A stretch of 34,406 bases of DNA. Origin: Acidobacteriota bacterium. Lineage in GTDB: Bacteria > Acidobacteriota > Terriglobia > Acidiferrales > UBA7541. The stretch lies in contig JAKASX010000033.1 in the NCBI GenBank assembly GCA_021818865.1, positions 1-34,406 on the forward strand, in the 5' to 3' direction. The position numbers and the translations under genes are program-made. Shown in pieces: positions 1,594 through 32,334 of the stretch. A model generated the notes under the pieces. That model saw only the letters and a list, made by a program, of their open reading frames with translations, made no database searches and had not been told where the DNA came from. How positions within the stretch are numbered: the stretch's first letter is position 1; each line of letters opens with the position of its first letter.

Positions 1594-4286
1594 TCCGGAT
1601 TTTCGTTGACGGCAAGCCATACGAGATCAACCCGAAACAGAATCTCCTCGAGGCCTGCCTCGGCCACGGCCTCGATCTCCCCTATTTCTGCTGGCATCCC
1701 GCGCTCGGCTCGGTTGGCGCGTGCCGCCAGTGTGCCGTCAAGATCTTCCGCGACGAAAAGGACACCCGCGGCCGCATCATGATGGCCTGCATGACCGTTC
1801 CCACGCCCGATATGCTCGTCTCGATCGCCGATCCCGAGGTCCGCGATTTCCGCGCCGGCATCGTCGAAGGCCTGATGATGAGCCATCCGCACGATTGCCC
1901 GGTCTGCGACGAAGGCGGCCAGTGCCATCTGCAGGATATGACGGTGATGACCGGCCACAACTATCGCCGGTACGAATTCCCCAAGCGCACTTTCCGCAAT
2001 CAAAACCTCGGTCCGCTGCTCAATCACGAAATGAACCGCTGCATCCAGTGCTACCGCTGTACGCGGTTCTACACCGAATACGCCGGCGGCAAGGATTTCT
2101 CCGTTTCCAAGCTGCGCAATCTGGTCTATTTCGGCCGCACCGAGGATGGCCCATTCGAAAGCGAATTTTCCGGTAATCTCGACGAAGTTTGCCCCACCGG
2201 CGTCTTCACCGACAAAACCGCCAAGCAGCATTACACCCGGAAATGGGACCTGACGTTCGCCCCATCCGTCTGCCCGCATTGCGCGCTCGGCTGCAATATC
2301 AGCCCGGGTGAGCGCTACGGCACGCTCCGCCGCGTGGTGAATCGCTACAACGGTGAAATCAACGGCTATTTCCTTTGCGATCGCGGCCGCTTCGGCTACG
2401 AACACGTCAATAGCGGCCGGCGCATCCGTTCGCCGCGCGCGCGTCGCGATTCGCAAACGGCCGAAATCTCAAAAACCGAAGCGCTCGATCGTTTCTCCAC
2501 GCTCGCCGCTGCCGGAAAGCTGATTGGAATCGGCTCGCCGCGCGCCTCGCTCGAATCCAATTTCGCCCTCCGCGCTTTGGTCGGCCCGGAAAATTTCTAC
2601 GCCGGCGTTTCCGACGCCGAGCACAAACTGCTCGGTGAAATGCTCGCCATTCTGCGCGAAGGCCCCGCACCGGCGTCGCTCCGCCAGATCGAGCATGCCG
2701 ATGCCGCCTTCGTTCTGGGCGAGGACGTGACGAATGTCGCCCCGCGCCTCGCGCTCACCTTGCGCCAGACGGTGCGCCAGGTCCTGCTCGACAGGGCGGA
2801 GAAGATCGGCGTGCCGCGCTGGCAGGATCACGCCATTCGCGAGCTCGCGCAAAAGGATCATGGCCCGCTCTTCATCGCCAGTCCCTACGCCACCAAGCTC
2901 GATGACGTAGCCACGGAAACCCGCCGCGCCGCGCCGGATGATATCGCGCGTCTCGGTTTCGCCGTTGCTCGCATTCTCGATCCCGCTTCGCCCGAGGTTC
3001 CCGGCCTTGCAGACGACGTTCGCGCGCAGGCCGAGCGCATCGCCCAGACGCTCAAATCCTCCGCGCGCCCGGCGATGATCAGCGGCGTGAGCACATTGAA
3101 TATCGCGGTCGTGCGTGCCGCTGCCGATGTCGCCCGCGCCCTGGCCAAGGCCGGAAAACAGGTCTCCTTCGCGCTCGCCATGGAAGAGGCGAACAGCCTC
3201 GGCCTCGCCATGCTCGACCCGAAGCCGCTCGGCCAGGCCTTTGCCGCCGCCTCGCGCGGCGAAGCGCAGGTGATCGTCGTCCTCGAAAACGATCTCTATC
3301 GCCGCGCTCCCGCCGCCGCCGTGGATGCGTTCCTCGGCTCGGCTCGCGTGGTCGTTCTCGATTCGCTCGAATCGCCCACCGCGGAAAAAGCCGAGTTGGT
3401 GCTTCCCTCGACGCCTTTTTCCGAAGCCGATGGCACGCTCGTTTCAAGCGAAGGCCGCGCCCAGCGCTTCTTCCGCGTCTATCCGCCCGCGGAAGAGATT
3501 CAGGATGCTTGGCACTGGCTGCGCGACGTTCTCGGTTTGCTCGCCCGGCCCGAGGGCCTCAGCTGGTCGAAGCTCGACGATGTGGTTGAGGGTATCGCCC
3601 GCGCCGTTCCCGCGCTCGCCCGCATTCGCGACGCCGCTCCGGGCTCGAGCTTCCGCATCGCCGGCGCCAAGATCCCGCGCGAGCCTCACCGCTTTAGCGG
3701 CCGCACTTCGATGCTCGCCAATATCGCCGTCAGCGAGCCCAAGCCGCCCGAGGATCCCGACTCTCCGCTTTCTTTCACGATGGAAGGCGCGCCCATCGAG
3801 CCTCCCGCTTCGCTCCTTCCGTTCTTCTGGACCGGCGGTTGGAATTCAATTCAGTCGGTGAACAAATTCCAGGAAGAAATCGCCGGGCCGCTCCGTGGCG
3901 GCGACGCCGGCGTCCTCCTGATCGAGCCCGCGGCTGCGTCGCCGGCGTATCGGAATTCGGTGCCGGCCGCGTTTTCGCCGCGCCAAGGCGAATGGCTCAT
4001 GGTTTCTCGCCATCACATTTTCGGTTCGGAGGAATTGAGCGCGCAGTCGCCCGCGATCGCCCAGCTTTCGCCCCAGCCGTACGTCGCGCTCGGTGCGGAA
4101 GACGCCGACGCGCTCGGCGCAGCCGCCGGCGCTTCCGTCGAAGTGAAACTGGAAGGAGCGGCGGCGCGCCTGCCGCTTCGCATCGAGCCCGGCTTGCCGC
4201 GCGGCGTCGCCGCGCTTCCCGCGGGATTCGGCCCGCTCGCCGGCATTCCACTGCCCCTCTGGGGCCGGATTGAGTTGACGCGATGA
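1590..4286 (+). CDS. nuoG: NADH-quinone oxidoreductase subunit G, with N7 cluster ligands
   Basis: The 898-residue large Fe-S subunit of the peripheral arm. The [2Fe-2S] N1b ligands are C34, C45, C48 and C67. The His-Cys motif for N5 is H99, C103, C106 and C112. N4 is bound by C151, C154, C157 and C201. A further CxxCxxxCx27C set (C228, C231, C235, C263) matches the N7 cluster that only some bacteria keep. The rest is the molybdopterin-oxidoreductase-like domain, which in complex I carries no Mo cofactor; it is Ala/Arg-rich and diverged here. The ATG at 1590 overlaps the nuoF stop, and the TGA at 4284-4286 overlaps the nuoH ATG. A longer frame runs upstream to 1338 but only as a shadow of nuoF, so the start at 1590 is firm. 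Confidence 0.96.
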
Positions 4287-5239
4287 ACCCGGTGCTGCTC
4301 AAAATCATCGTTCTGCTCGGCATCCTGATCGTCGTCTTGACGCTCGCTTCCGGCCTCATCTGGCTCGAGCGACGCTTGCTCGCCCTCTGGCAGGACCGCT
4401 ACGGCCCCAATCGCGTCGGCCCGTTCGGCCTGCTCCAGGTGCTGGCGGACATGATCAAGATTTTCTTCAAGGAAGACTGGATTCCGCCATTCGCCGATAA
4501 GCCCGTCTTCGTTCTCGCCCCGGCCATCATCGTGATCACCGTGCTGCTCACGTTTGCGGTGATTCCGTTCACCCCGCTCGTTCAGATCGCCGATACGAAT
4601 ATCGCTCTATTGTTCTTCCTCGGCATGAGTTCGCTCGGCGTCTACAGTGTGGTGCTCGGCGGCTGGGCCTCGAACAACAAATATTCGCTCCTCGGCGGCA
4701 TGCGCGCCGCGTCCCAGATGCTCAGCTACGAAGTTTTCATGGGCCTTTCGATGATGGGCACGGTGATGCTCGCCGGCTCTTTCAGCCTGCGCTCGATCGT
4801 CGAAGCGCAGCGCCACATGTGGTTCGTCGTGCCGCAATTCCTGGGTTTCGTACTGTTTCTGATCGCCGGCATCGCCGAAACGCGCCGCCTGCCGTTCGAC
4901 TTGCCCGAGGCGGAAAGCGAACTCGTCGCCGGCTTCCACTCCGAATATTCCGGCATGAAATTCGGCATGTTTTTCGTCGGCGAATATCTGGGCGTGATTC
5001 TGATTTCGGTGCTGCTCTCGGTGCTCTACTTCGGAGGCTGGCAGGGACCGTTCTTGCCGCCGATCGTCTGGATCGTTCTGAAGACGCTGTTTTTCATCTG
5101 CTTCTTTATTCTGCTGCGGGCGGCGATGCCGCGGCCGCGGTTCGACCAGTTGATGTCGTGGGGCTGGAAGTGGATGCTCCCGCTCAGCCTGTTGAATCTC
5201 GCGGTCACCGGCGCCGTCGTTCTGGCGATGCGAAGGTAG
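4283..5239 (+). CDS. nuoH: NADH-quinone oxidoreductase subunit H (membrane, quinone site)
   Basis: The 318-residue integral membrane subunit that joins the peripheral and membrane arms and helps form the quinone chamber and its proton path. Conserved blocks are visible: [12 protein letters not shown] followed by [11 protein letters not shown] (about residues 45-70), and the loop [20 protein letters not shown] followed by [11 protein letters not shown] (about residues 195-225), whose acidic residues line the quinone site. Around eight hydrophobic spans are present, as expected, and the length is typical. The ATG overlaps the nuoG stop by 4 nt. The TAG stop is 6 nt before nuoI. Confidence 0.97.
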
Positions 5240-5245
5240 GGAGCG

Positions 5246-5761
5246 ATGTGGAGCATACTCCAATCTTTGTGGCTGGTCCTGCTGCACATGTTCCAGCCGC
5301 GCTTCACCGTCCAGTATCCGGACGAGAGGCCGTACCTCGCGCCGCGCTACCGTGGCCGCATCGTGCTCTCGCGCGATCCCGATGGCGAGGAACGCTGCGT
5401 CGCCTGCTACCTCTGTGCCGTCGCCTGCCCGGTCGATTGCATTTCTCTGCAAGCCACCGAGGATCCGCACGGCCGCCGCTATCCCGAATGGTTCCGTATC
5501 AATTTTTCGCGCTGCATTTTCTGCGGCCTGTGCGAGGAAGCGTGTCCGACTTACGCCATCCAGCTCACTCCCGATATCGAAATGGGCGAGTACAACCGGC
5601 AGAACCTGGTCTATGAAAAGGCAAATCTGCTGATCGATGGCCCCGGCAAATATCCCGGCTACAATTTCTGGCGCGTCGCCGGCGTTCGCATCAAGGACAA
5701 GGACAAGGGTCAGGCGGAAAACGAGGCGCCTCCGGCCGATCTGCACGCGCTGACCCCCTGA
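5246..5761 (+). CDS. nuoI: NADH-quinone oxidoreductase subunit I (two [4Fe-4S] clusters)
   Basis: The 171-residue ferredoxin-like subunit that carries clusters N6a and N6b and relays electrons toward N2 and quinone. Two CxxCxxCxxxCP motifs are present: C51, C54, C57, C61 and C90, C93, C96, C100. An extra cysteine, C65, follows the first motif. The N-terminus ([15 protein letters not shown]) is the usual amphipathic helix that lies on the membrane. A GGGAG sequence lies just upstream of the ATG. The next gene starts 9 nt after the stop. Confidence 0.97.
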
Positions 5762-5770
5762 GGAAACGGA

Positions 5771-6361
5771 ATGGAAGCGATTTTCTACATTGCGGCGATC
5801 GTTGCGGTGCTGGCGACGGTGCTCACCGTCACGCGGCTGAATCCGGTGCACGCGCTGCTCTATCTCACCGTTTCGCTGCTCGCCGTCGCCGTCGTTTTCT
5901 ACACGCTCGGCGCGCCGTTCATGGCCGCGCTCGAGGTCGTTATCTACGCCGGCGCGATCATGGTTTTATTCGTTTTCGTCGTCATGCTGCTGAATCTCGG
6001 CCGGCACACCGTCGAAATCGAGCGCTCCTGGCTCTCGCCCGGCGCGTTCGTCGGCCCCGCGATTCTGGCGGCGATTCTCGTTGGCGAAGTTTCCTATTTG
6101 CTGGCGCGGTCGGGCACGCTCACGCCCCCGGTCGCGGAAGTCAGCCCTCATCAGGTCGCGCTCTCGCTCTACGGGCCCTACCTGCTGGGGGTCGAGTTGG
6201 CGTCATTTTTGCTGCTGGGCGCCCTGGTGGGCGCTTATCACGTGGGCTCGCGTCGAGCCCAAGGGAGGACCACCGTTGGCAGCCGTTCCGACCGAACAGG
6301 GCTTGCTTCTGGCGGGGATCTTGTTCGCACTGGGGCTGATCGGCCTTCTGGTGCGGCGTAA
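5771..6361 (+). CDS. nuoJ: NADH-quinone oxidoreductase subunit J
   Basis: Membrane-arm subunit of 196 residues. The third transmembrane helix region [20 protein letters not shown] (about residues 57-76) is the characteristic NuoJ segment with the pi-bulge that moves during turnover. About five membrane spans end at ALVGAYHVG (about residue 158). The last 28 or so residues are polar, Arg/Gly-rich and unlike the family. They are encoded where the frame runs 86 bases into nuoK, so the natural family C-terminus seems to be extended by readthrough into the overlap, or a base is missing near 6240-6275. The ATG at 5771 follows GAGGAAACGGA. Identity is firm; the exact C-terminus is less sure. Confidence 0.93.
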
Positions 6362-6584
6362 TCTGCTCTTCATCCTGATGGCGATCGAGGTGATGCTCAA
6401 CGCCTCGGGACTGGCTTTCGTGTCCGCCGGCGCCCGCTGGGGCCAGGCGGATGGCCAGGTGATGTTCCTGTTTATTTTGACGGTCGCGGCGGCTGAGGTC
6501 GCGGTCGGCCTGGCGCTGCTCCTGCGCCTCTACCACCGCTTCCATTCGCTCGACGTCGATGCCGCAAGTGAGATGAGAGGCTGA
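6276..6584 (+). CDS. nuoK: NADH-quinone oxidoreductase subunit K, TTG start
   Basis: Small membrane-arm subunit, 102 residues with three transmembrane helices, close to the family's usual 100. The two glutamates that act in proton transfer are present, in [11 protein letters not shown] and [11 protein letters not shown] (E36 and E72 in E. coli). No ATG or GTG lies suitably upstream. I chose TTG 6276 because a strong GGGAGG (6263-6268) sits 7 nt before it and it gives the family's N-terminus ([13 protein letters not shown]). The gene starts inside the end of nuoJ, in a different frame. Its TGA overlaps the nuoL ATG by one base (TGATG). Confidence 0.92.
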
Positions 6585-8473
6585 TGTTTCATCTTCTCTG
6601 GTTGGTTCCCGCAATTCCATTTGCCGGCGCGGCCCTGCTGATGATTTTCGGGCCGCGGATGGCCCATCGCACGGCGGCCTGGATCGGCTGCTGCTCGATC
6701 GGCATTTCGGCGGTCATTTCGATGCTGATCGCCTGGCAATTCCTCCACCAGCCGCCTGCCGGTGGCAGCTACACCCAGCATTTGTGGACGTGGATGAGCG
6801 TCGCGAATTTCCATCTCGGAATTTCGTTCTATCTCGACGCTCTCTCGCTCATCTTCATGCTGGTCGTCACCTTCGTCAGCTTCTTCATCCACGTCTACTC
6901 GTCCGAGTACATGCGCGGCGATGAAGGCTTCAGCCGTTTCTTCGCCTACATGAACCTCTTCGTCGCCTCGATGCTCGTCCTCCTGCTCGGTAGCAACCTC
7001 CTCCTCCTCTACCTCGGCTGGGAGGGCGTCGGCGTTTGCAGCTACCTGCTGATCGGTTTCTGGTACACCGATCCGAAAAACGGTCTCGCCGCGCAAAAAG
7101 CCTTCATCACCACGCGCGTCGGCGACACCGCCATGGCCGTCGGCCTCTACCTCCTCTTCCGGCAGCTTGGCACCCTCAACATCCAGTCGCTGATGCAGGC
7201 CGCGCAGCACCAATGGCCGCACGGCTCCGTCTACGCCACCGCCGCCGGCCTGCTCCTGCTCGGCGGCGCTTGCGGCAAATCGGCCCAGCTTCCGCTCCAA
7301 ACCTGGCTGCCCGACGCGATGGCCGGCCCCACGCCTACGAGCGCCTTGATTCACGCGGCCACCATGGTCACCGCCGGCGTCTACTTGATCGCGCGCACCC
7401 ACGTCCTTTATTCGCTTGCGCCCACGGCTCAGCTCGCCGTCGCCGTCGTTGGCGCGGCCACGCTGATTGCTGCGGGTTTCGCCGCTCTGGTCCAGGACGA
7501 TATCAAGCGCATCCTCGCCTATTCCACCGTCAGCCAGATCGGCTACATGTTCCTCGGCCTGGGCGTCGGCGCGTGGACCGCCGCGATTTTCCACTTCATG
7601 ACCCACGCCTTCTTCAAGGCCCTCCTTTTCCTCGCTTCTGGCATGGTTATCACCTCCATGCACCACGAGCAGAACATCTTCAAGATGGGCGGCTTGCGCA
7701 AGGAACTCCCGCTCGCCTATTGGGCCTTCGTGATTGGCGGCTGTTCTCTCGCCGGCTTGCCGCTCGTCACCGCCGGCTTTTACAGCAAGGGACTGATCCT
7801 GTGGGGCGCGCTCAGTTCGCCTGTCGGCAGCGCCACGCTGTGGTTCTTCGGCGTCATCGGCGTCCTGATGACCTCGCTCTACACGTTCCGCCTGATTTTC
7901 ATCACGTTCCACGGCCCCTGCCATCACAAGCCGAGCCAGAAAACCGGTTGGCTGATGGGCGTGCCGGTCATCGTGCTGATGACGCTCTCGGTCGTCGGCG
8001 GCTTCGTCGAACTGCCCTCCTATCTCGGCAACCATCCCTGGTTCACCAATTTCCTCCAATCCGCGCTTCCGGCAACCGCCGAGGGCCACGCGCCGCTCAC
8101 CGAACTGGGCGCCGAGGGCATCGTCGTCCTCGCGTTTTTCCTGGGACTTGGCGCGGCCTGGTTTTTCTTCCTCCAGCGCCGCGAACTCTCGGAATCCATG
8201 GCTGGCTCCGGTCTGGGCCGCGCGCTGCACCGCTGGTGGTACACCGATTGGGGCATGGACTGGCTCTACGATCGCCTCTTCGTTCGTCCGGTCGGCTGGT
8301 TCAGCCGCACGAATAAGAAAGACGCTGTGGATCTCATCTACACCGGAACGGCCGCCGTCACCCGCTCCGGCTGGAGTTCGCTGCGGCTGACGGAAACCGG
8401 CCGCGTTCGCTGGTACGCCACGGCTCTGGTCGTTGGAACCGTGATCTTCGTCTTGATTGTGGCGCTGCTATGA
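6584..8473 (+). CDS. nuoL: NADH-quinone oxidoreductase subunit L (antiporter-like)
   Basis: The 629-residue distal proton-pumping subunit of the membrane arm, related to Mrp antiporters. Characteristic segments are LGWEGVGVCSYLLIGFWY (TM5 glutamate region, about residues 144-161), GKSAQLPLQTWLPDAMAGPT (lysine and TM7-8 loop, about 230-249) and DDIKRILAYSTVSQIGYM (about 305-322). The C-terminal part, with RWWYTDWGMDWLYDRLF and a final hydrophobic helix, fits the long lateral helix and its membrane anchor in this subunit. The ATG overlaps the nuoK TGA, and the stop overlaps nuoM by 4 nt. Confidence 0.97.
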   Translation: MFHLLWLVPAIPFAGAALLMIFGPRMAHRTAAWIGCCSIGISAVISMLIAWQFLHQPPAGGSYTQHLWTWMSVANFHLGISFYLDALSLIFMLVVTFVSFFIHVYSSEYMRGDEGFSRFFAYMNLFVASMLVLLLGSNLLLLYLGWEGVGVCSYLLIGFWYTDPKNGLAAQKAFITTRVGDTAMAVGLYLLFRQLGTLNIQSLMQAAQHQWPHGSVYATAAGLLLLGGACGKSAQLPLQTWLPDAMAGPTPTSALIHAATMVTAGVYLIARTHVLYSLAPTAQLAVAVVGAATLIAAGFAALVQDDIKRILAYSTVSQIGYMFLGLGVGAWTAAIFHFMTHAFFKALLFLASGMVITSMHHEQNIFKMGGLRKELPLAYWAFVIGGCSLAGLPLVTAGFYSKGLILWGALSSPVGSATLWFFGVIGVLMTSLYTFRLIFITFHGPCHHKPSQKTGWLMGVPVIVLMTLSVVGGFVELPSYLGNHPWFTNFLQSALPATAEGHAPLTELGAEGIVVLAFFLGLGAAWFFFLQRRELSESMAGSGLGRALHRWWYTDWGMDWLYDRLFVRPVGWFSRTNKKDAVDLIYTGTAAVTRSGWSSLRLTETGRVRWYATALVVGTVIFVLIVALL

Positions 8474-10149
8474 TCCTCGTCTGGCTCATCGTCATTCCGC
8501 TCGCCACCGGCCTCATTGCCGGGCTGGTCGCGCGCAAAAACGCGCTCTTGTGCCGCTGGCTCTCGCTCTTCGCCACGGTGGCCGGTTTCCTGATCTCGGT
8601 TGACCTCTGGGTCCGCTACTATCCGCACATCTCGCTCCTCACGCAGGAGCAATGGATCGCCCAGATCAACGTCCCGTGGATCTCGGGTTTTGGCATCCGG
8701 TTCCATCTGGCGATGGACGGCATGAGCCTTCTGCTCGTCACGCTCACCTTCCTGCTCGGGATCGTCAGCGTCATGATCAGCTGGCGCGAAATCCACGACG
8801 GCGTCGGCTTCTTCCATTTCAATCTGCTCTGGGTGCTGGCGGGGATCGTCGGCGTTTTCCTGGCGATGGATCTATTCCTTTTCTACTTCGCCTGGGAACT
8901 GATGCTGATCCCGATGTATTTCCTGATCGCGATCTGGGGCCACGAGCGCCGCGTCTACGCTTCGGTGAAGTTCTTCCTCTTCACCCAGCTCAGCGGCCTG
9001 CTCATGCTCGTCGCCATCCTGGCGCTCTATTTCGCGCACCACGCCGCCACCGGCGTCTACACCTTTGAATACGACGCGCTGATGCACACGCCGCTCGCGC
9101 CGGGCACGGAAATGCTCATTATGCTGGGCTTTTTCGTCGCCTTCGCCGTCAAGCTGCCGATGTTCCCGTTTCACACCTGGCTGCCGGACGCTCACACCGA
9201 AGCGCCCACCGCCGGCAGCGTCATCCTGGCCGGCCTGCTCCTGAAAACCGGCGCGTACGGCTTGATTCGTTTCGTTCTGCCTCTGTTTCCCGCCGCCGCG
9301 CACCGTTTCGCGCCCATCGCCACGGCCCTCGCCGTCGCCGGCATTCTTTACGGCGCGGTGCTCGCCTACGGCCAGACCGACGTGAAGCGCCTCGTCGCCT
9401 ATACCAGCGTCAGCCACTTGGGTTTCGTCCTGCTCGGCATTTTCATCGGCACCCCGCTCGCCATCGCCGGCGCGTTCATTACGATGATCGCGCACGGCAT
9501 CAGCACCGGCTCCATGTTCATGATTTGCGGCATGGTGCAGGAGCGCACCCACACCCGCGATATGGATCGCCTGGGCGGCTTATGGGAAACGATTCCGCGC
9601 CTCAGCGGCTCGGCCATGTTCTTCATGCTCGCTTCGGTCGGCCTTCCCGGCATAGGCGATTTCGTCGGCGAGTTCCTGGTCTTGCTGGGAACGTATCAGG
9701 TGAGCCACATGCTGGCCGCGCTCGCCACCATCGGCGTGCTCTGTTCCACCTTCTACGGACTGAAATTCATCGCGCGCGGGTTCCACGGCCCCAATCGCAA
9801 CCAGTGGAAGCTGGCCGATCTTTCCGCCCGAGAAATCCTGCTCATGGGCGCGATGATCGTCGTCGCGCTTTGGCTCGGCCTCTATCCGCAGCCGGTTCTG
9901 AACACGTTCGCGCCCACGGGACAGCGCGTGGATCAGGCGTTCAACGGCCCCACGATGGCGAAGCTCCAGGGCGGGGTAAAGATGGTCCCGGCCAGCGTCG
10001 CCGGCCCCGCCGAGTTCGCCGTTTCCGCGCCGATGCTTTCCCAAACACCGCGCGGCCCGTATCGTCAGGATCGGGCCGCTTCGCCCGCCGGCGCGCCGGC
10101 TGTTGCGCTGGCCCTCACCCACACTGGCTCCGCCGGAGGTAAGCGTTGA
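8470..10149 (+). CDS. nuoM: NADH-quinone oxidoreductase subunit M (antiporter-like)
   Basis: The 559-residue proton-pumping subunit. The glutamate-bearing helix LFYFAWELMLIPMYFLIA (about residues 137-154) and the loop KLPMFPFHTWLPDAHTEAPT (about 227-246) are diagnostic, as is DVKRLVAYTSVSHLGFVL. The hydrophobic core ends near LWLGLYPQPVLNTFAPTG (about residue 483). A further 60 or so residues are Ala/Pro/Gly-rich, without hydrophobic helices, and make the protein longer than the roughly 500 residues usual in the family. The start overlaps the nuoL stop (ATGA). The TGA overlaps the nuoN TTG start. Confidence 0.96.
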   Translation: MILVWLIVIPLATGLIAGLVARKNALLCRWLSLFATVAGFLISVDLWVRYYPHISLLTQEQWIAQINVPWISGFGIRFHLAMDGMSLLLVTLTFLLGIVSVMISWREIHDGVGFFHFNLLWVLAGIVGVFLAMDLFLFYFAWELMLIPMYFLIAIWGHERRVYASVKFFLFTQLSGLLMLVAILALYFAHHAATGVYTFEYDALMHTPLAPGTEMLIMLGFFVAFAVKLPMFPFHTWLPDAHTEAPTAGSVILAGLLLKTGAYGLIRFVLPLFPAAAHRFAPIATALAVAGILYGAVLAYGQTDVKRLVAYTSVSHLGFVLLGIFIGTPLAIAGAFITMIAHGISTGSMFMICGMVQERTHTRDMDRLGGLWETIPRLSGSAMFFMLASVGLPGIGDFVGEFLVLLGTYQVSHMLAALATIGVLCSTFYGLKFIARGFHGPNRNQWKLADLSAREILLMGAMIVVALWLGLYPQPVLNTFAPTGQRVDQAFNGPTMAKLQGGVKMVPASVAGPAEFAVSAPMLSQTPRGPYRQDRAASPAGAPAVALALTHTGSAGGKR

Positions 10150-24112: not shown

Positions 24113-24172
24113 GGCTTGTTTTGCGGCGGGGACTCGGGTGATCGAAATTTGCCAGCAGTTCAGGAGGTCCAT

Positions 24173-27100
24173 GTGAAGTTCCGGCACATCGTGCTTTCTC
24201 TTTCCGCCCTTGCCGCATCGGCCTTGGTGCTGGTCGCCTACGCGCAAAAGCGCGGCATGTTTTCTTCGTCGTTTACCCGGAAGGGCAAACGCGGGGAAGA
24301 CGACGCCCAAATCATCCGCGCCCGCGAAAACTGGTTCTACCGCCAGCGCGCCTATCCTTTGCCACGCATCCCCGCCGGCGCCCGCCAGCGGGCTTGGCAG
24401 CAATTCCTCGCCGCAAGACAGCAACGCGACAGCCTTTTCCAGCAGAAATTCGGCGCCGATTACGTCAAGCGCGCCGCCGCCGCAGCCCTCGCCGCCGGCG
24501 TCGTGAATACCGCCGCCACGTGGGCGCCGATCGGCCCTCAGCCCTCGAACGACTACTTTTTCCAGCCTTACGTCTCCGGCCGCGTCACCGCGCTCGTGGT
24601 TGATCCCTGCGATTCCACCGGTCACACGGTTTTCCTCGGCGGCGCGCAGGGCGGCCTCTGGCTCACCACCAATGCCGGCACCACCTGGACCCCGCTCACC
24701 GACGGCGCGCCATCGCTGGCCATCGGTTCCCTCGCCGTTCCGCCCTCAACGCCTGGTGGCGCTGGGTGCGTTGGCACGGTTTCAAAGACCGTGTACGTAG
24801 GCACGGGCGAAGAAAATTTCTCCTACGACAGCTACTACGGCGCGGGCGTCCTGACCTGCACCACCACCAACGGCTCGACCTACTCCTGCACGCCGGACCA
24901 GACCCTCGGCGCCTTTAACGCCCAGTCCCAGCCGCTCACACCCGATTCCGGCGGTCCGTACATCGGCGGTCTGGCTGTGGATCCTCAAAATCCGTCTATC
25001 ATGCTCGCTGCCGTGCAAGGCTATCAGTCGGTCTTACCTTCAGGAATATGGTGTTCCCAGAATGCCGGCGTGAGTTGGACGCACGTCGCGCCCAGTGTCA
25101 CGCAGGAAGTGGCCACCGGCGTGGCCTTCGATAGCGCCGGCGTTGGCTACGCCGCCATCGGCAATACGGACGGCAGCGGTAACCTCAACGGCGTCTACTC
25201 GTCGTCGACCCCGATCAGTTCATGCACCAGCCCCGCGCCCACTTTCACCAACCTCGGCGGCCTGAACAATCTCGCCGGCGGGCAATCGGCGATGGGCCGC
25301 ATCTCGATTTCGGTCTATTCCGGTAGCAGCGCTTCGAGCGACGAGATTTTCGCCGCCATCGCCACTGCCTCCAACGACTCCAGCACCCTGCTCGGCGTCT
25401 TCAAGAGCACGAACGGCGGCAGCTCGTGGTCTCAGTCAGACCCAAACAGCTCGCTGGTAACCTCTTCCGGAGGATTCTGCAATAACCAGTGCTTCTACGA
25501 CATTCCGATCACCATCGACCCGCGCAACCAGAATGTGATTTACGCCGGTGGCGCCGCTCCCAACAGCAGCTACGGCGCAACCGTCATCGCCTCCACCAAC
25601 GGCGGCAGCACCTGGACCGACATTTCCAATAATTCCTGCACCAACTGCTTCACCGGCCTTCACGTGGACACCCACGCCTTCGCCTTCACCCCTCCCGGCG
25701 ATTCCAACGATATGGTGTACGTCGGCACCGACGGCGGCGCGTGGTACAACACCACCCCGGAATCGCCAACTTCCACACAGGTGTGGACCGATCTCAATTC
25801 GACCCTCGCGCTGACCCAGGTCTACCCAGGTGTCTCGAACGATCCCGGCGGCTGGACCTATCGAAGTTTCCTCGGCTCCCAGGACAACGGCACCCAGGTT
25901 TTCGGCCAGCAAAGCGTTTCCACGCTCCCGCTGAGTTGGGACAACACGCTCTCCTGCGGTGACGGCGCCGTGACGCTCGTGGACCCGCTGATTCCCAGCA
26001 CCGTCTACACCGAATGCGCCTACATTCCCGGCGTGATCGGCGGCGTGCTCGAATCGCTCCAGAATGGCAGCGCCGATGATTCGGCGACCGCTGGCACCAC
26101 CACCTTCTTCAGCGCTTCGAACGGAATCAATCTTTCCGACAACGGCAATTTCATCACCCCGCTCGCCATCGATCCCGAAGCCACCGGCTCGACCGGCGAC
26201 GCCCAGACCCTCTATTTCGGCACCATCTACGTCTATCAGACGACCGACGGCGCGGTGAGCTGGAACGAAATCTCGCCTGACCTTTCCGGCGACAACTCAA
26301 GCAACTCCGGGGTCAGCTCCTTCTGCGCCACGAACTCCGGCTATTGCGCCCTCACGACGATCGGTGTCGCGCCGAAGAATTCCAACGAAGTCGCGACGGG
26401 TAGCAACGCCGCTGACCTGTACCTGAGCACGAATGCGACTCAGGGCACCAGTTCCACCTGGACCGAAGTGGGGAATCCATCCACCACGGTCGTCGGTTCT
26501 TCGGGCTCCTCGACGCTTCCACCCTCCGCCGTCACTCAGGTCGCGATGGACGGCTCCGGCAACCTCTACGCCACCTATTCCGGTTTCTCCGGTAATTTCC
26601 AGGTCAACGGTAGCACCGTTCCGATCGCGCCCGGCCACGTCTTCTACGGCTTGGTTGCCAACGCTAGTGGAACGCCCACCGTCACGTGGACGGACGTCAG
26701 CTCGGCTGCGGCCTGCGTCACGGGCACCGGCAATCTGCCGAATATTCCCGTCAACTCCATCGTTGTGGATCCCGACAAACCCGGACAGCTTTTCGTCGGC
26801 ACCGACGTCGGCGTCTACGTTGGTGAATTGCAAGGCTCCGCGCCCGCCTACACCGGCGGCTGCTGGCAGCCGCTCGGCTCGGGTTTGCCCAATTCCGCCG
26901 TGCTTTCGCTTTCGCTCAACGACGCTTCGCGCACCCTCCTCGCCGGCACGCACGGCCGCAGCGTGTGGGCGCTCGCGCTCGGCGATCAGTCGGCGTTCTC
27001 GCTCGGTACGCTTTCACCCGCTTCCGCCAACGCCGGCGGTCCTGCCTTCACCATGAATCTGGTGGGCCAGGGCTTTACCTCCGGTTCGACCGTGAACTGG

Positions 27101-28762
27101 ACGGTCGGCGGTTCAACTCCTTCCGGCTGCACGGTGAGCGTCACGAGCGAAGGTTCGGAGACGACGATCATCGGCCAGTCCGCCACGCAGATCACCGCCA
27201 GCGTTCCCGCCGCCTGTATTGCGCTCGGAGGCGTCGCCGAGGTCAGCGTCTCCGATTCCACTCAGACGCCGAACACCACCAACACGCTCGAGTTCACCGT
27301 CACGTCAACTACACCCACCGTCAACACCATCAGTCCCGTCACCGGCACAGCCAATAATTCGCTCGCGATGACGCTCTCCGGCACGGGCTTCGCCTCGAAT
27401 TCGACGGTTGGCTTGCAAACCGAACTCGGCAATTACGCCTGCAACCCGATCGCCGCCGCCAGCGCTACGAGCGCCCAACTCACCGCCAATATCACCGCCG
27501 CTTGCCTGCAATATGGCGGCATATTCTTCGTCAACGCCATCAACCCCGCGCCCGGCGGCGGGTCCTCGAACCCGAACCTGATCGCGGCTGCGTCTCCTTA
27601 CGGCACCGCATGCGCCGGAATGACTACGCCCGGCTGCCTGCTCACCGTCACCGGCGCCACGCCATCCAACGCGAATTTCAGTACGGCGACCTCCATCAAT
27701 AGTTCCTCGTTCAGCGTCACCGAAGACACGGCGTACGCCAACGGCGGGTCGGCGCCCGGGCCCAACCTGGCGAATGTATCCACCGATAACTACTGTGGCG
27801 ATGGCGCGCCCCTCAGCAGTTCCGGTGTCCCGGATAATGGCGACGCCAATGCCGTCTGGTTTTCTTACACGCCGTCAGGCAGCGTGACCGCCGAATTCGA
27901 TACGATTGGCAGCACCTACGACACGATTCTCTCCGTCTGGTCGGGTTCTTCGATCAACAACCTGACCAGCGTCGCCTGCAACGACGATATTTCTCTCGGC
28001 GTGAACCGCGTTTCCCAGATTTCCAATCTCAGCCTCAACGGCGGCACCACTTACTACATCATGGTCTCCACGTTCGGCGTGCCGATTCTCAATGGCAGCG
28101 GCAGCCTTACTAGTCTTCTGGCCGACGGTGGCAAGTTGGTGTTCAACGCGAGCGTTGGCGCCGTTTCAAACGTGGCGTTCACCGCCAGCGCCTCGACTCC
28201 CAATCCCGCTTCCGTTTCTCCCGGTTCGTCCTCTTCGGACACGCTCACGCTCACGCCGCAATCCGGCAGCCCCAGCGGAACGGTCACGATGCAGCCGTGC
28301 ACCAATTCGGCAAACAATTCGACCATCACCTGCACCTATTCCTCGAGCAGCGTTAACCTGAGCGGAAGCAGCTCGGCCTCGGTGGCCGTAACCATCAATA
28401 CCGTCTCGAATGGCGCGTTGCCGCCTGGCGCGCCGTTCGGTGCCCCGCCCATCGGTTGGCTCGCGGTGCTGATTGCCGCCGCGTCAGTCGGCGTTTTCCT
28501 GCTGATGCGGCGTAACGTCGCGCGTCGCGCGCGAGCCGGCGCGGCTACGGGCCTCAGCCCGGTGCCGCTCCGCGCCAGCGTCCTAGCCGCGCTCGGCTTC
28601 GCTTTGCTCGCCGGCATGCTGATCTTCCAAAGCGCCTGCGGCGGTGGAGGCTCGGCCCCTCCCACGACCACGGGCACGCCGGCTGGCAACTACACGGTCA
28701 CGATCCCCACGTCGCCCGCGGCGGCAAACGGCAACCAGTCGGTCACGGTGACGGTGCTATAG
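24173..28762 (+). CDS. large exported BNR/sortilin-like beta-propeller protein
   Basis: 1529 residues. A signal peptide (HIVLSLSALAASALVLVAYA) is followed by a charged helix (about residues 30-105). Then come about 800 residues of BNR/sortilin-like repeats, with Asp-box-like motifs such as TNAGTTWTPLTDG (about 161), STNGGSTWTDISN (about 478) and TTDGAVSWNEISPD (about 690), closing at GTHGRSVWALALG (about 925). Two IPT/TIG-like Ig folds (about 940-1150) and a PPC-like domain (about 1190-1320) follow, then an Ig-like strand region. The end is unusual: a membrane helix (about 1427-1444), a basic stretch, a second hydrophobic stretch ending SACGGGGS (about 1470-1490) and a tail containing PAGNYTVTIP. 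It is probably surface-exposed, but its ligand or enzyme activity is unknown. I chose GTG 24173 because AGGAGGT lies just upstream and it puts the signal peptide first. Confidence 0.88.
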   Translation: MKFRHIVLSLSALAASALVLVAYAQKRGMFSSSFTRKGKRGEDDAQIIRARENWFYRQRAYPLPRIPAGARQRAWQQFLAARQQRDSLFQQKFGADYVKRAAAAALAAGVVNTAATWAPIGPQPSNDYFFQPYVSGRVTALVVDPCDSTGHTVFLGGAQGGLWLTTNAGTTWTPLTDGAPSLAIGSLAVPPSTPGGAGCVGTVSKTVYVGTGEENFSYDSYYGAGVLTCTTTNGSTYSCTPDQTLGAFNAQSQPLTPDSGGPYIGGLAVDPQNPSIMLAAVQGYQSVLPSGIWCSQNAGVSWTHVAPSVTQEVATGVAFDSAGVGYAAIGNTDGSGNLNGVYSSSTPISSCTSPAPTFTNLGGLNNLAGGQSAMGRISISVYSGSSASSDEIFAAIATASNDSSTLLGVFKSTNGGSSWSQSDPNSSLVTSSGGFCNNQCFYDIPITIDPRNQNVIYAGGAAPNSSYGATVIASTNGGSTWTDISNNSCTNCFTGLHVDTHAFAFTPPGDSNDMVYVGTDGGAWYNTTPESPTSTQVWTDLNSTLALTQVYPGVSNDPGGWTYRSFLGSQDNGTQVFGQQSVSTLPLSWDNTLSCGDGAVTLVDPLIPSTVYTECAYIPGVIGGVLESLQNGSADDSATAGTTTFFSASNGINLSDNGNFITPLAIDPEATGSTGDAQTLYFGTIYVYQTTDGAVSWNEISPDLSGDNSSNSGVSSFCATNSGYCALTTIGVAPKNSNEVATGSNAADLYLSTNATQGTSSTWTEVGNPSTTVVGSSGSSTLPPSAVTQVAMDGSGNLYATYSGFSGNFQVNGSTVPIAPGHVFYGLVANASGTPTVTWTDVSSAAACVTGTGNLPNIPVNSIVVDPDKPGQLFVGTDVGVYVGELQGSAPAYTGGCWQPLGSGLPNSAVLSLSLNDASRTLLAGTHGRSVWALALGDQSAFSLGTLSPASANAGGPAFTMNLVGQGFTSGSTVNWTVGGSTPSGCTVSVTSEGSETTIIGQSATQITASVPAACIALGGVAEVSVSDSTQTPNTTNTLEFTVTSTTPTVNTISPVTGTANNSLAMTLSGTGFASNSTVGLQTELGNYACNPIAAASATSAQLTANITAACLQYGGIFFVNAINPAPGGGSSNPNLIAAASPYGTACAGMTTPGCLLTVTGATPSNANFSTATSINSSSFSVTEDTAYANGGSAPGPNLANVSTDNYCGDGAPLSSSGVPDNGDANAVWFSYTPSGSVTAEFDTIGSTYDTILSVWSGSSINNLTSVACNDDISLGVNRVSQISNLSLNGGTTYYIMVSTFGVPILNGSGSLTSLLADGGKLVFNASVGAVSNVAFTASASTPNPASVSPGSSSSDTLTLTPQSGSPSGTVTMQPCTNSANNSTITCTYSSSSVNLSGSSSASVAVTINTVSNGALPPGAPFGAPPIGWLAVLIAAASVGVFLLMRRNVARRARAGAATGLSPVPLRASVLAALGFALLAGMLIFQSACGGGGSAPPTTTGTPAGNYTVTIPTSPAAANGNQSVTVTVL

Positions 28763-28958: not shown

Positions 28959-30542
28959 ATGAATGTTCTCCTCATTTCCACGTACGAACTGGGCCGCCAA
29001 CCGTTCGGCTTGGCTTCTCCCGCGGCGTGGCTGTGCCAGGCCGGCCACGCAGTCCGCTGCCTGGATCTTTCGCGGGAACCGTTCGACGAATCAGCGGCGG
29101 GGTGGGCGGATCTCATCGCTTTCTACGTTCCCATGCACACGGCCACGCGACTGGCCGCCGGACTCGTCGAGCCGGTACGCCGCGCGAATCCGGCCGCGCA
29201 CATCTGTTTCTACGGTCTTTACGCCCCGGTCAACGAACCCTGGCTGCGCCGTCTCGGCGCCCAGACCATCCTTGGCGGCGAATTCGAATCCGCTCTGGTC
29301 CATCTCGCCGATCGGCTCGGCAATTCACAATCCGGCTCGATTTCACGCGAGGCGCATGATGCGAGTGGCACCGCTGTCATCCTTCGGGCCCCGATGCACC
29401 CCATCGGGGCCCGAAGGATCTCGGCGTCGGAAGCATCCACGTCGGTGGCCATTCGGAAACCGCCGGAGCAACCCAATGCCGTTCAGTCCGAGCCGCTGAT
29501 TTCTCTCGCTCGCCAGCAATTTCACGTCCCCGATCGTTCTCTTCTCGTTCCGCTCGATCGTTACGCCCACCTTCGTTTGCCCGACGGCCGCGAACTCGTC
29601 TCGGGCTACACGGAAGCCAGCCGCGGCTGCAAGCATCGCTGTCGCCATTGCCCGATCGTTCCCGTCTACGACGGCGTGTTTCGCATCGTGCAGCCGGAAA
29701 TCGTTTTGGAAGACGTTCGCCGCCAGGTGCGCGCCGGCGCCCGCCACGTCACGTTCGGCGATCCCGATTTTTTCAACGGCCCGCGCCACGCGCTCGAAAT
29801 CGTGCGCGCGCTTCACGCCGAATTTCCCGAACTCAGCTACGACGTCACGATCAAGGTCGAGCATCTGCTCGCCCGTGCTTCGAATCTCGCCGTTCTCCGC
29901 GATACCGGCTGCCTTTTCGTCACCACGGCCGTCGAATCGCTCGACGACCAGGTGCTGGCAAAACTCGAAAAAGGGCACACGCGCGCGGATTTTCTCGATG
30001 TCGTCGCGCTCATGCGCCGCGTCGGCCTCGCGATCCAGCCGACTTTTATCCCTTTCACCCCATGGACCACGCTCGATTCCTATCTCGATCTGCTCGATAC
30101 GCTCGCCTCGCTCGATTTGGCCGAAACCATCGCGCCCGTCCAACTTGCGATTCGCCTGCTCGTTCCCGCCGGCTCGCGCCTGCTCGAACTCGAAGAAATG
30201 CGGCAGCTGCTCGATCCGTTCGATCCCGCAATGCTCACCCATCCCTGGCGCCACGCCGATCCTCGCGTGGATCGCTTGCAACAGGAAATCGCCGCCGTCG
30301 TGGAAAATTCCCGCTCGCAAAATGTATCGCGATCGGAAATTGTCGTTCGCGCGCATGGCGCCGCGCTCGCTGCCGCTGGCCGCGCGCCCGTTTCGTCCGC
30401 GTTCGAATCGCCGCGTCTCTCGCGCGCCGCCATCCCTTTCCTCACCGAACCCTGGTACTGTTGAGCCGAGCCGACCGGCGAGCAGTTGGCTCCCATCCGC
30501 AAAGCGCGACAGAGTCTCCATCACGCCGATTCCTTCGTGTGA
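28959..30542 (+). CDS. CUAEP-tail radical SAM selenoprotein (UGA at 30462-30464 read as Sec)
   Basis: With UGA read as selenocysteine the product has 527 residues; with an ordinary stop it would end at 30464 after 501. Residues 1-120 (MNVLLISTYELGRQPFGLAS onward) form a B12-binding-like fold without DxHxxG. The radical SAM cluster is C224, C228 and C231 (GCKHRCRHC). VTFGDPDFFNGP and FVTTAVESL belong to the barrel. The apparent C-terminus PFLTEPWYC is followed by TGA and then codons for Ala-Glu-Pro, giving C501-U502-A-E-P and 22 more residues. This matches the CUAEP/CCAEP-tail radical SAM (seleno)protein family as I remember its NCBI name; its reaction is not known to me. A 50-residue linker holds a palindromic insertion (29379-29419). 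The extended frame ends 3 nt before the ATP-grasp gene. Radical SAM identity is firm; Sec insertion is a strong inference. Confidence 0.88.
29379..29419. repeat. perfect 18-bp inverted repeat inside the radical SAM gene
   Basis: The arm at 29379-29396 (ATCCTTCGGGCCCCGATG) is the exact reverse complement of 29402-29419, with a 5-nt loop. It is in frame (residues 141-154) in a poorly structured linker between the two domains. Its ends (GTCATCCT and AGGATC) match the intergenic repeat at 13221-13246. Confidence 0.85.
30462..30492 (+). promoter_or_regulatory. Sec UGA codon and candidate bacterial SECIS hairpin
   Basis: After the UGA (30462-30464), GAGCCGA (30468-30474) pairs with TTGGCTC (30486-30492) in a 7-bp stem with one G-U pair. 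The 11-nt loop (CCGGCGAGCAG) lies 11-21 nt after the UGA. Bacterial SECIS elements, recognised by SelB, sit directly behind the UGA and expose G residues in the apical loop, which this one does. Confidence 0.6.
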
Positions 30543-30545
30543 CCG

Positions 30546-31877
30546 ATGTCCGCGTGCTACGCTGGAATTCGCGCCGCCATGACCGCTTCCGCCCAGCCGA
30601 AACGCCTGCTGCTGCTTTCGAGCAAATTCGGCTATCAAACGAAGGCCTTCGCCGATGCCGCCGTCCGCGTTGGCGCGGAAGTCCTTTTCGGCACTGACCG
30701 TTGCCGCCGCCTCGACGATCCCTGGGGTGACGCCGCGCTTCCGCTTCATTTCGAAGATCCGGAAAATTCAGCCGAAAAAATCGTTCGTCTCTCAGCGAAA
30801 TTGCCGTTTGACGCCATTCTGGCGCTGGGCGACCACCCCGCGCTCGCCGCGGCACACGCTGCGCGCCGGCTCGGGCTGCGTGGAAATCCCGTTTCGGCGG
30901 TGGAAAATTGCGCGACGAAACTCCGCCAGCGCCAGACGCTCGCTGCCGCCGGACTTCCCGTTCCGTCTTTTTTCGATTTCCGGCTCGACGATCCGCTCTC
31001 GGCAGTTCTCTCTCGCGTCCGTTTCCCCTGCGTCCTGAAACCGCTCGTTCTCGCGGCGAGTCAGGGGGTCATTCGCGCCGACGATCCCGCGGGCTTCGAC
31101 CGCGCCCTGAATCGCATTCGCGCGCTGGTGGAATCGCCGCCGGTACGCGCCGGCCATCGCGAGGGACTCGATCGGCTGCTCGTCGAATCCTACGTTCCGG
31201 GCAGGGAAGTGGCCGTCGAGGGTTTGCTGGTGGATGGAAATCTGCGCGTGCTCGCGATTTTCGATAAACCCGATCCGCTCGAAGGCCCGTTTTTCGAGGA
31301 AACGATATACGTCACGCCTTCGCGCCTTCCGCTCGCGGCGCAAAACGCGATTCGCGATTGCGCCCAGGATGCCGTGCGCGCGCTCGGACTCACCGACGGC
31401 CCGCTCCACGCCGAATTCCGCGTCGAAGGTGATCGTCCTTGGGCGCTTGAGCTTCAACCGCGCCCGATCGGCGGCCTGTGTGCCCGCGCGCTGCGTTTCG
31501 GCCCCGCGCGCATCGGCCTCGAAGAATTGCTCGTTCGCCGCGCGCTTGACATCCCCGGCTGGCAGGACGAACGCGAGCCGGAGGCGTCAGGCGTGATGAT
31601 GATTCCCGTTCCGCACAGCGGAATTTTGGAGGGTGTCGCGGGCGTCGAAGAAGCTCAAGCCACGCCGGGAATCGTCGGCCTGGAAATCACCGCGCGCCTG
31701 CGCGATCCGCTCATCGCGTGGCCCGAAGGTTCCAGCTACCCAGGTTTCCTCTTCGCCCGCGCCGATTCTCCCGCCGCGGTCGAATCGGCCCTGCGCAAAG
31801 CCCATGCCTGCTTGCGCTTCGAAATCTCCGACGAATTGCCAGTCGAGCATCCCGCGGCGCACGAGCGTTCCGCCTGA
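30546..31877 (+). CDS. ATP-grasp domain protein paired with the radical SAM selenoprotein
   Basis: 443 residues. The N-terminus (KRLLLLSSKFGYQTKAFADA) is the preATP-grasp Rossmann-like part. ATP-grasp elements follow: NCATKLRQRQTLAAAGLPVPSF, PCVLKPL with ASQGVIRA (nucleotide lysine and glycine-rich loop), LLVESYVPGREVAVEGLLV, and ELQPRPIGGL (metal-binding Glu and Asn/Gln region). This fold activates a carboxylate as acyl-phosphate and joins it to an amine or thiol, as in carboxylate-amine ligases; the substrate cannot be inferred. About 80 C-terminal residues resemble the extra domain of biotin carboxylase-type members. It starts 3 nt after the extended selenoprotein frame. ATG 30546 gives the tight spacing; ATG 30579 (MTASAQPKRLLLL) is an equally plausible start. 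Confidence 0.88.
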   Translation: MSACYAGIRAAMTASAQPKRLLLLSSKFGYQTKAFADAAVRVGAEVLFGTDRCRRLDDPWGDAALPLHFEDPENSAEKIVRLSAKLPFDAILALGDHPALAAAHAARRLGLRGNPVSAVENCATKLRQRQTLAAAGLPVPSFFDFRLDDPLSAVLSRVRFPCVLKPLVLAASQGVIRADDPAGFDRALNRIRALVESPPVRAGHREGLDRLLVESYVPGREVAVEGLLVDGNLRVLAIFDKPDPLEGPFFEETIYVTPSRLPLAAQNAIRDCAQDAVRALGLTDGPLHAEFRVEGDRPWALELQPRPIGGLCARALRFGPARIGLEELLVRRALDIPGWQDEREPEASGVMMIPVPHSGILEGVAGVEEAQATPGIVGLEITARLRDPLIAWPEGSSYPGFLFARADSPAAVESALRKAHACLRFEISDELPVEHPAAHERSA

Positions 31878-31949: not shown

Positions 31950-32279
31950 TCAGCTTTTCGCTTTCGGCGGAACGTACCCTTCCGGCAATTTCGCACCCTC
32001 GCCGAAAAAGAACGCTTCCATCTGTTCTTCGATGAATTTCTGCGAATTGGGATCGAGCGGGTTCAGCCGGTACTCGTTGATGAGCATCTTCGAGTATTCA
32101 ATCCACATCCGCCACGCTTCTTTCGAAACGTTCTCGTAAATCCGTTTTCCCAGTTCGCCCTTCCATGGAGGCCGGTCGAGTCCGGGCATTTCCCGCCCGA
32201 ACTTCACGCAATTCACCATCCGCTGTCCCGGCTTGGCCGGTTCAGCCGCCGGCGGGGTCGAGCAAGGTTCATCGGCCAT
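31950..32279 (-). CDS. YggX-like Fe(II)-trafficking / oxidative damage protection protein
   Basis: 109 residues. The family core is easy to read: VNCVKFGREMPGLDRPPWKG, ELGKRIYENVSKEAWRMW, NEYRLNPLDPNSQKFIEEQM, FFFGEG. The cysteine of VNCVKF is the conserved one linked to iron-sulfur protection in YggX. The usual protein is near 90 residues. Here about 20 extra residues (MADEPCSTPPAAEPAKPGQR) precede the family's start; a methionine at residue 21 could be an internal start. ATG 32279 is favoured by GGGAGG 6-7 nt upstream. It is divergent from the glucokinase gene and convergent with the ATP-grasp gene. Confidence 0.93.
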   Translation of the reverse strand: MADEPCSTPPAAEPAKPGQRMVNCVKFGREMPGLDRPPWKGELGKRIYENVSKEAWRMWIEYSKMLINEYRLNPLDPNSQKFIEEQMEAFFFGEGAKLPEGYVPPKAKS

Positions 32280-32304
32280 CAGATTCCTCCCTTTCGCATT
32301 CCCC

Positions 32305-32334
32305 AAGATACTCTAAACCGCGCGCGTTTCCCAA
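32305..32334 (-). promoter_or_regulatory. candidate promoter of the yggX-like gene
   Basis: On the - strand TTGGGA (32329-32334) and TATCTT (32305-32310) are 18 nt apart, followed by a leader of about 20-25 nt with GGGAGG before the ATG at 32279. Spacing and placement are good; the boxes are imperfect. Confidence 0.45.

Follow-up and report, generated by a model that had tools for sequence, protein, structure and literature searches.

Radical SAM proteins with a CUAEP or CCAEP tail are already named as a family in NCBIfam (NF040546) and in RefSeq, and the gene described in this study is a further member of that catalogued family. The accession NF040546 is absent from the 2026 review of prokaryotic selenoproteins (PMC13188914), and no paper using the word CUAEP or CCAEP was found in a search made without the full texts of two likely source papers (Haft). 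Judged by sequence, the closest characterised relative of the protein is the arsenic enzyme ArsL, which makes hydroxyarsinothricin, and for which a transfer of the 3-amino-3-carboxypropyl group of SAM to As(III) has been proposed (PMC8552651). In this study, a window of 34,406 nucleotides, meaning the whole stretch of Acidobacteriota DNA that was analysed, was investigated together with the homologues of its radical SAM gene. What is added to the family name is an ATP-grasp neighbour in about two thirds of the loci, the kinship to ArsL, and the repeated exchange of Sec and Cys. The name NF040546 is now testable, as there are a covarying hairpin linked to UGA, natural Cys variants as controls, a ligase partner and the ArsL kinship to work with. 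Once the reaction is assigned, it would become clear what role selenium has in a radical SAM enzyme found in many uncultivated members of the Acidobacteriota and among their relatives.

The in-frame UGA and its homologues

The features of the locus, in window coordinates, are as follows.

28959..30542, plus strand: radical SAM gene read through UGA, 527 aa plus stop; the annotated form would end at 30464
28995..29306, plus strand: N-terminal B12-binding-like (Rossmann) domain, residues 13-116 (PF02310, 22.3 bits, below the cut-off of 32.1)
29628..29651, plus strand: CxxxCxxC of the radical SAM [4Fe-4S] cluster, Cys224/Cys228/Cys231, invariant in the alignment
30462..30464, plus strand: UGA, predicted selenocysteine 502, right after the invariant Cys501 (from the frame and homologue tails)
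30465..30539, plus strand: predicted coding tail after Sec, AEPTGEQLAPIRKARQSLHHADSFV, with A-E-P conserved in the family (from the frame and homologue alignment)
30477..30494, plus strand: predicted bacterial SECIS hairpin, GG(C)GAGC-AGUUG-GCUCCC (from folding and covariation; criteria of PMC13188914)
30540..30542, plus strand: stop (UGA) of the read-through frame, from translation
30546..31877, plus strand: ATP-grasp gene with ATP-grasp_4 and L-amino-acid-ligase C-terminal (LAL_C2) Pfam domains

Standard gene calling gives the radical SAM ORF 501 amino acids (28959-30464, plus strand), with the end ...TEPWYC-UGA. The codons TGT-TGA-GCC-GAG-CCG lie at 30459-30473, and when the TGA is read as Sec the frame continues as AEPTGEQLAP... 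and yields 527 residues, with U at residue 502, before a second in-frame TGA closes it; since the ATP-grasp gene starts at 30546, only 3 nt separate the two genes. The codons and their spacing, the standard stop, the frame open to 30542 and the 527-residue product had all been reported by a sequence-only reading of the window, and our retranslation reproduced them exactly. That reading had also given the family name and proposed a search of the full product against NCBIfam, in which we observed a score of 628.9 bits against NF040546, whose cut-off is 500, so that the name was right. The tail is worth 21 bits of this score (608.0 without it), and the protein carries the C-terminal C-[U/C]-A-E-P motif of the family as TEPWYCUAEP. 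Compared with most members, its tail beyond AEP is longer, as it is in near relatives.

Out of 396 genomes of the phylum, 61, with the window's own counted, lay above the family cut-off, and most of these 61 loci contained exactly one in-frame UGA. Read from DNA, their tails gave 47 UGA and 10 Cys codons after the invariant Cys, always followed by [AS]EP, while four loci had no readable tail. A second set was drawn from named genomes of Acidobacteriota, Methylomirabilota, Chloroflexota, Latescibacterota, Calditrichota and others, as well as one Thermomicrobium plasmid, and may share genomes with the first. It gave 52 UGA and 22 Cys codons in 74 of 81 loci, the other 7 having no readable tail, and its Cys share may be inflated because one of its two search patterns used Cys codons. 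The motif W[FY]C-[UGA/Cys]-[AS]EP was thus found in 57/61 and 74/81 family loci, which upholds the earlier argument that the AEP codons after the UGA are not a chance match. The sequence-only reading had suggested looking for Cys or Sec at residue 502 in homologues; over both sets the codon was UGA in 99 and Cys in 32 of the 131 readable tails. Neither UAA nor UAG occurred there in any of the 131, so that homologues ending at such a stop without a conserved AEP, which it had named as counter-evidence, were not seen, and Trp never occupied the position. A quick tree of these 131 rows, from which the tail was left out, shows at least 16 changes between Sec and Cys; support is weak for one third of its inner branches. 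The exchange appears to have happened repeatedly in the family.

In an alignment of 34 rows with UGA read as Cys, Glu497, Trp499, Cys501, residue 502, Glu504 and Pro505 were invariant, and A-E-P is kept after codon 502 in sequences of many phyla. A relative from Thermomicrobium roseum (L111 5935-7371) is named CUAEP/CCAEP-tail in RefSeq, yet it is ended there at WFC*, with UGA-AEP next in the DNA and the AEP tail lost. The conserved C-terminal motif of these proteins is split by gene callers, so that databases lack a Cys-Sec pair which is seemingly part of an active site.

The hairpin, the selenocysteine machinery and alternative readings

The predicted hairpin of the window has 6 bp, one bulged C, a 5-nt loop AGUUG with G in second place, and 19 nt from the UGA to the loop, and in isolation its energy is -7.9 to -8.1 kcal/mol. 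It agrees with the published bSECIS criteria, which are a loop of 3-9 nt, an upper stem of 4-16 bp, a G in the first two loop positions, a distance of 16-37 nt from the UGA and an MFE <= -7.5 (PMC13188914). In the family, the hairpin begins 13 nt past the UGA, and its loop is of the AGUUG or AGGUG type. Among the 47 UGA genes of the first set, 287 of 329 pairs were formed, against 215 +/- 7 when the 3' arms were shuffled (0 of 10,000 as high) and at most 223 in 2,000 rounds of synonymous recoding. Comparatively, the 10 Cys genes formed 30 of 70 pairs, the same as under synonymous recoding. The position-constrained energy was -9.96 kcal/mol in 98 UGA genes against -2.65 in 32 Cys genes, with a p value (4e-14) which is optimistic because the sequences are related. 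These comparisons indicate a covarying hairpin which UGA genes maintain and Cys genes mostly lack.

Compared with others in the family, the hairpin of the window is rather weak: 12% of its synonymous recodings are equally stable. Folded unconstrained, the 36-nt RNA of the window prefers another structure, at -13.2 kcal/mol; as the 5' arm of this competing fold starts 3 nt past the UGA, a ribosome standing at the UGA would probably open it. A generic scan for any hairpin under the bSECIS rules was passed by 38/47 UGA and 8/10 Cys genes and did not discriminate between them, hence the use of fixed-position pair counts and position-constrained energy. In near relatives of the window (L114, L117-L119 and others) the register of the hairpin is shifted by one base and the loop is AGUU, not AGUUG. 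In two Cys genes (L140 and L177) the hairpin at the SECIS position is still stable, which would fit a recent change from Sec to Cys.

The sequence-only reading had further pointed to selA, selB, selC (tRNA-Sec) and selD as genes to look for in the same genome, and had held that a genome without selB or selC would speak against Sec. All four were found in the window's genome, which is 95% complete: selA (568.9 bits), selB (377.7 bits), tRNA-Sec (67.4 bits, anticodon UCA), and selD as the following fragment.

L194 2-316, minus strand, at the edge of genome contig C116: selD fragment, cut by the contig end

This fragment contains an in-frame UGA, read as MAENVRLTSMAKAAG-U-AAKLSP, which is probably the Sec position of SelD, and the hairpin after it also contains CAGUU. 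SelD itself is often a selenoprotein (PMC13188914). A selD with its own in-frame UGA makes a second selenoprotein gene likely in this genome. Formate dehydrogenase is a common selenoprotein of Sec-using bacteria; its best match here was below the cut-off and contained no internal stop. Across the family, selB was detected in 45/47 UGA genomes versus 5/10 Cys genomes (p = 0.001), and tRNA-Sec in 42/47 versus 5/10. A few UGA genomes have no detectable selB or tRNA-Sec, several of them being incomplete assemblies.

We consider it highly probable that the gene product is a radical SAM selenoprotein of NF040546 with 527 residues, in which the UGA at 30462-30464 is decoded as Sec, and we infer that Sec is inserted at residue 502 in vivo. 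SelB and tRNA-Sec would decode this codon under the direction of the SECIS hairpin at 30477-30494. It may be argued that the UGA is an ordinary stop, with the protein ending at Cys501 and the later AEP codons being a decayed or non-coding remnant, and gene calling does halt there, as does the RefSeq record of the T. roseum relative. Such a remnant fits poorly with an A-E-P that is conserved past the codon in many phyla, with Cys in place of UGA in 32 loci, with a hairpin held in UGA genes and mostly lost from Cys genes, and with the presence of the Sec machinery in the window's own genome, which together make this reading very improbable. Conservation of the tail would by itself also follow if the UGA were read as Trp or by a near-cognate tRNA, or if the organism recoded UGA generally. 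Homologues, however, have Cys and never Trp at the position, the read-through frame itself stops at UGA, a tRNA-Sec with anticodon UCA is present, and the hairpin is tied to the UGA genes, so that read-through other than by Sec is scarcely credible.

Predicted fold, ArsL and the ATP-grasp neighbour

The radical SAM domain (PF04055) covers residues 221-364 with 56.3 bits. A sequence search of solved structures returned weak matches only, the best being 9ccb (E = 0.0073). The AlphaFold2 model (pLDDT 87.4) resembles the B12-type radical SAM enzymes AprD4, MgmA and OxsB, with Z scores of 26.6, 25.2 and 24.8, respectively, and rmsd values of 3.0-3.6 A over 350-418 residues, but the identities are only 16-19% and the reactions of these enzymes differ. 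To our knowledge, none of the three has been described with a Cys-Sec tail, and AprD4-like enzymes may retain the B12-binding domain without using B12. Between about residues 125 and 178, the window protein carries an insert, some 50 residues long, that most of the other aligned NF040546 members lack, and residues 128-165 within it are of low confidence in the model. Inside the insert, a perfect 18-bp inverted repeat with a 5-nt spacer lies in the coding frame (window 29379-29419), with no second copy in the genome at <=2 mismatches.

The second-best model for the window protein was that of ArsL (NF040542), at 275.4 bits. The protein was not assigned to ArsL, as this score is below the cut-off of 450 and its tail is CUAEP rather than RCCLKC. 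An ArsL-family protein on the Alicyclobacillus plasmid pAACI01, which scores 705 bits against the ArsL model, shares 31% identity with the window protein along most of the sequence. It also has a vicinal Cys pair at its C-terminus, in the tail RCCLKC where the window protein has CUAEP, and an ATP-grasp gene near its locus is 24% identical in product to the window's ATP-grasp. No ars genes were found among the annotated conserved neighbours of the family, and, unlike the setting of ArsL, no arsM was seen beside the window gene; the arsenic link of the window enzyme is an analogy.

An ATP-grasp homologue adjoins the family gene in 41/61 loci of the phylum and 48/73 of the others, usually on the same strand and directly downstream, and is the most frequent conserved neighbour, while about one third of the family loci have no such neighbour in the sequence examined. 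The downstream gene of the window combines ATP-grasp_4 and LAL_C2 domains as L-amino-acid ligases of the BacD / DdaF type do, but it scores far below the cut-offs of the named ligase equivalogs (58 against 850 bits for BacD). NfuA, YggX and, in some lineages, a POT-type peptide transporter also recur as neighbours of the family gene, a recurrence which may be simply local synteny.

Proposed function and the remainder of the window

The C-terminal Cys501-Sec502 may act as a catalytic or substrate-binding dithiol/selenolthiol that is presented to the SAM/Fe-S site, most likely as a redox couple or by binding a soft atom, for instance As(III). By analogy with ArsL, a SAM-derived group, either 3-amino-3-carboxypropyl or a one-carbon unit, would be attached to the soft atom or to a substrate, and the unusual amino acid thus produced would be coupled to a partner by the adjacent ATP-grasp ligase. 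ArsL-like chemistry of the window enzyme is a rather doubtful proposal, and ligation of the product by the ATP-grasp neighbour is somewhat easier to entertain, as a tentative possibility. Taken further, the selenoprotein and the ATP-grasp could form an undescribed and widespread two-gene pathway of mostly uncultivated bacteria, in which a soft element held by Cys-Sec (arsenic, selenium or other) acquires a bond to a carbon chain from SAM and the amino acid so made is joined to a second one; we regard this as unlikely and put it forward as speculation.

With the selenoprotein reading accepted, the Cys-Sec tail may instead only regenerate the enzyme or guard it against oxidation, with the ATP-grasp serving in another pathway. 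Cys-Sec pairs are often redox couples, NfuA (Fe-S biogenesis) and YggX (oxidative damage) frequently neighbour the family genes, and the loci without an ATP-grasp neighbour point in the same direction. It is harder to reconcile such a helper role with the standing of the ATP-grasp gene as the leading conserved neighbour, often immediately downstream on the same strand, and with the C-terminal Cys pair of the ArsL-family relative, given that the characterised ArsL acts on As(III). A tail confined to regeneration or protection is thus a possible account, though one we hold with less than even confidence.

As to the remainder of the window, a YggX-like (oxidative damage protection) gene lies on the minus strand at 31950-32306, convergent to the ATP-grasp gene, and the same neighbour was noticed in about 22 family loci. 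An ORF of 1,548 residues (24116-28762) immediately precedes the radical SAM gene; it has choice-of-anchor Z repeats and, at the C-terminus, a putative lipo-anchoring domain. The NADH-quinone oxidoreductase genes NuoH, NuoL and NuoM were found at 4283-10149.
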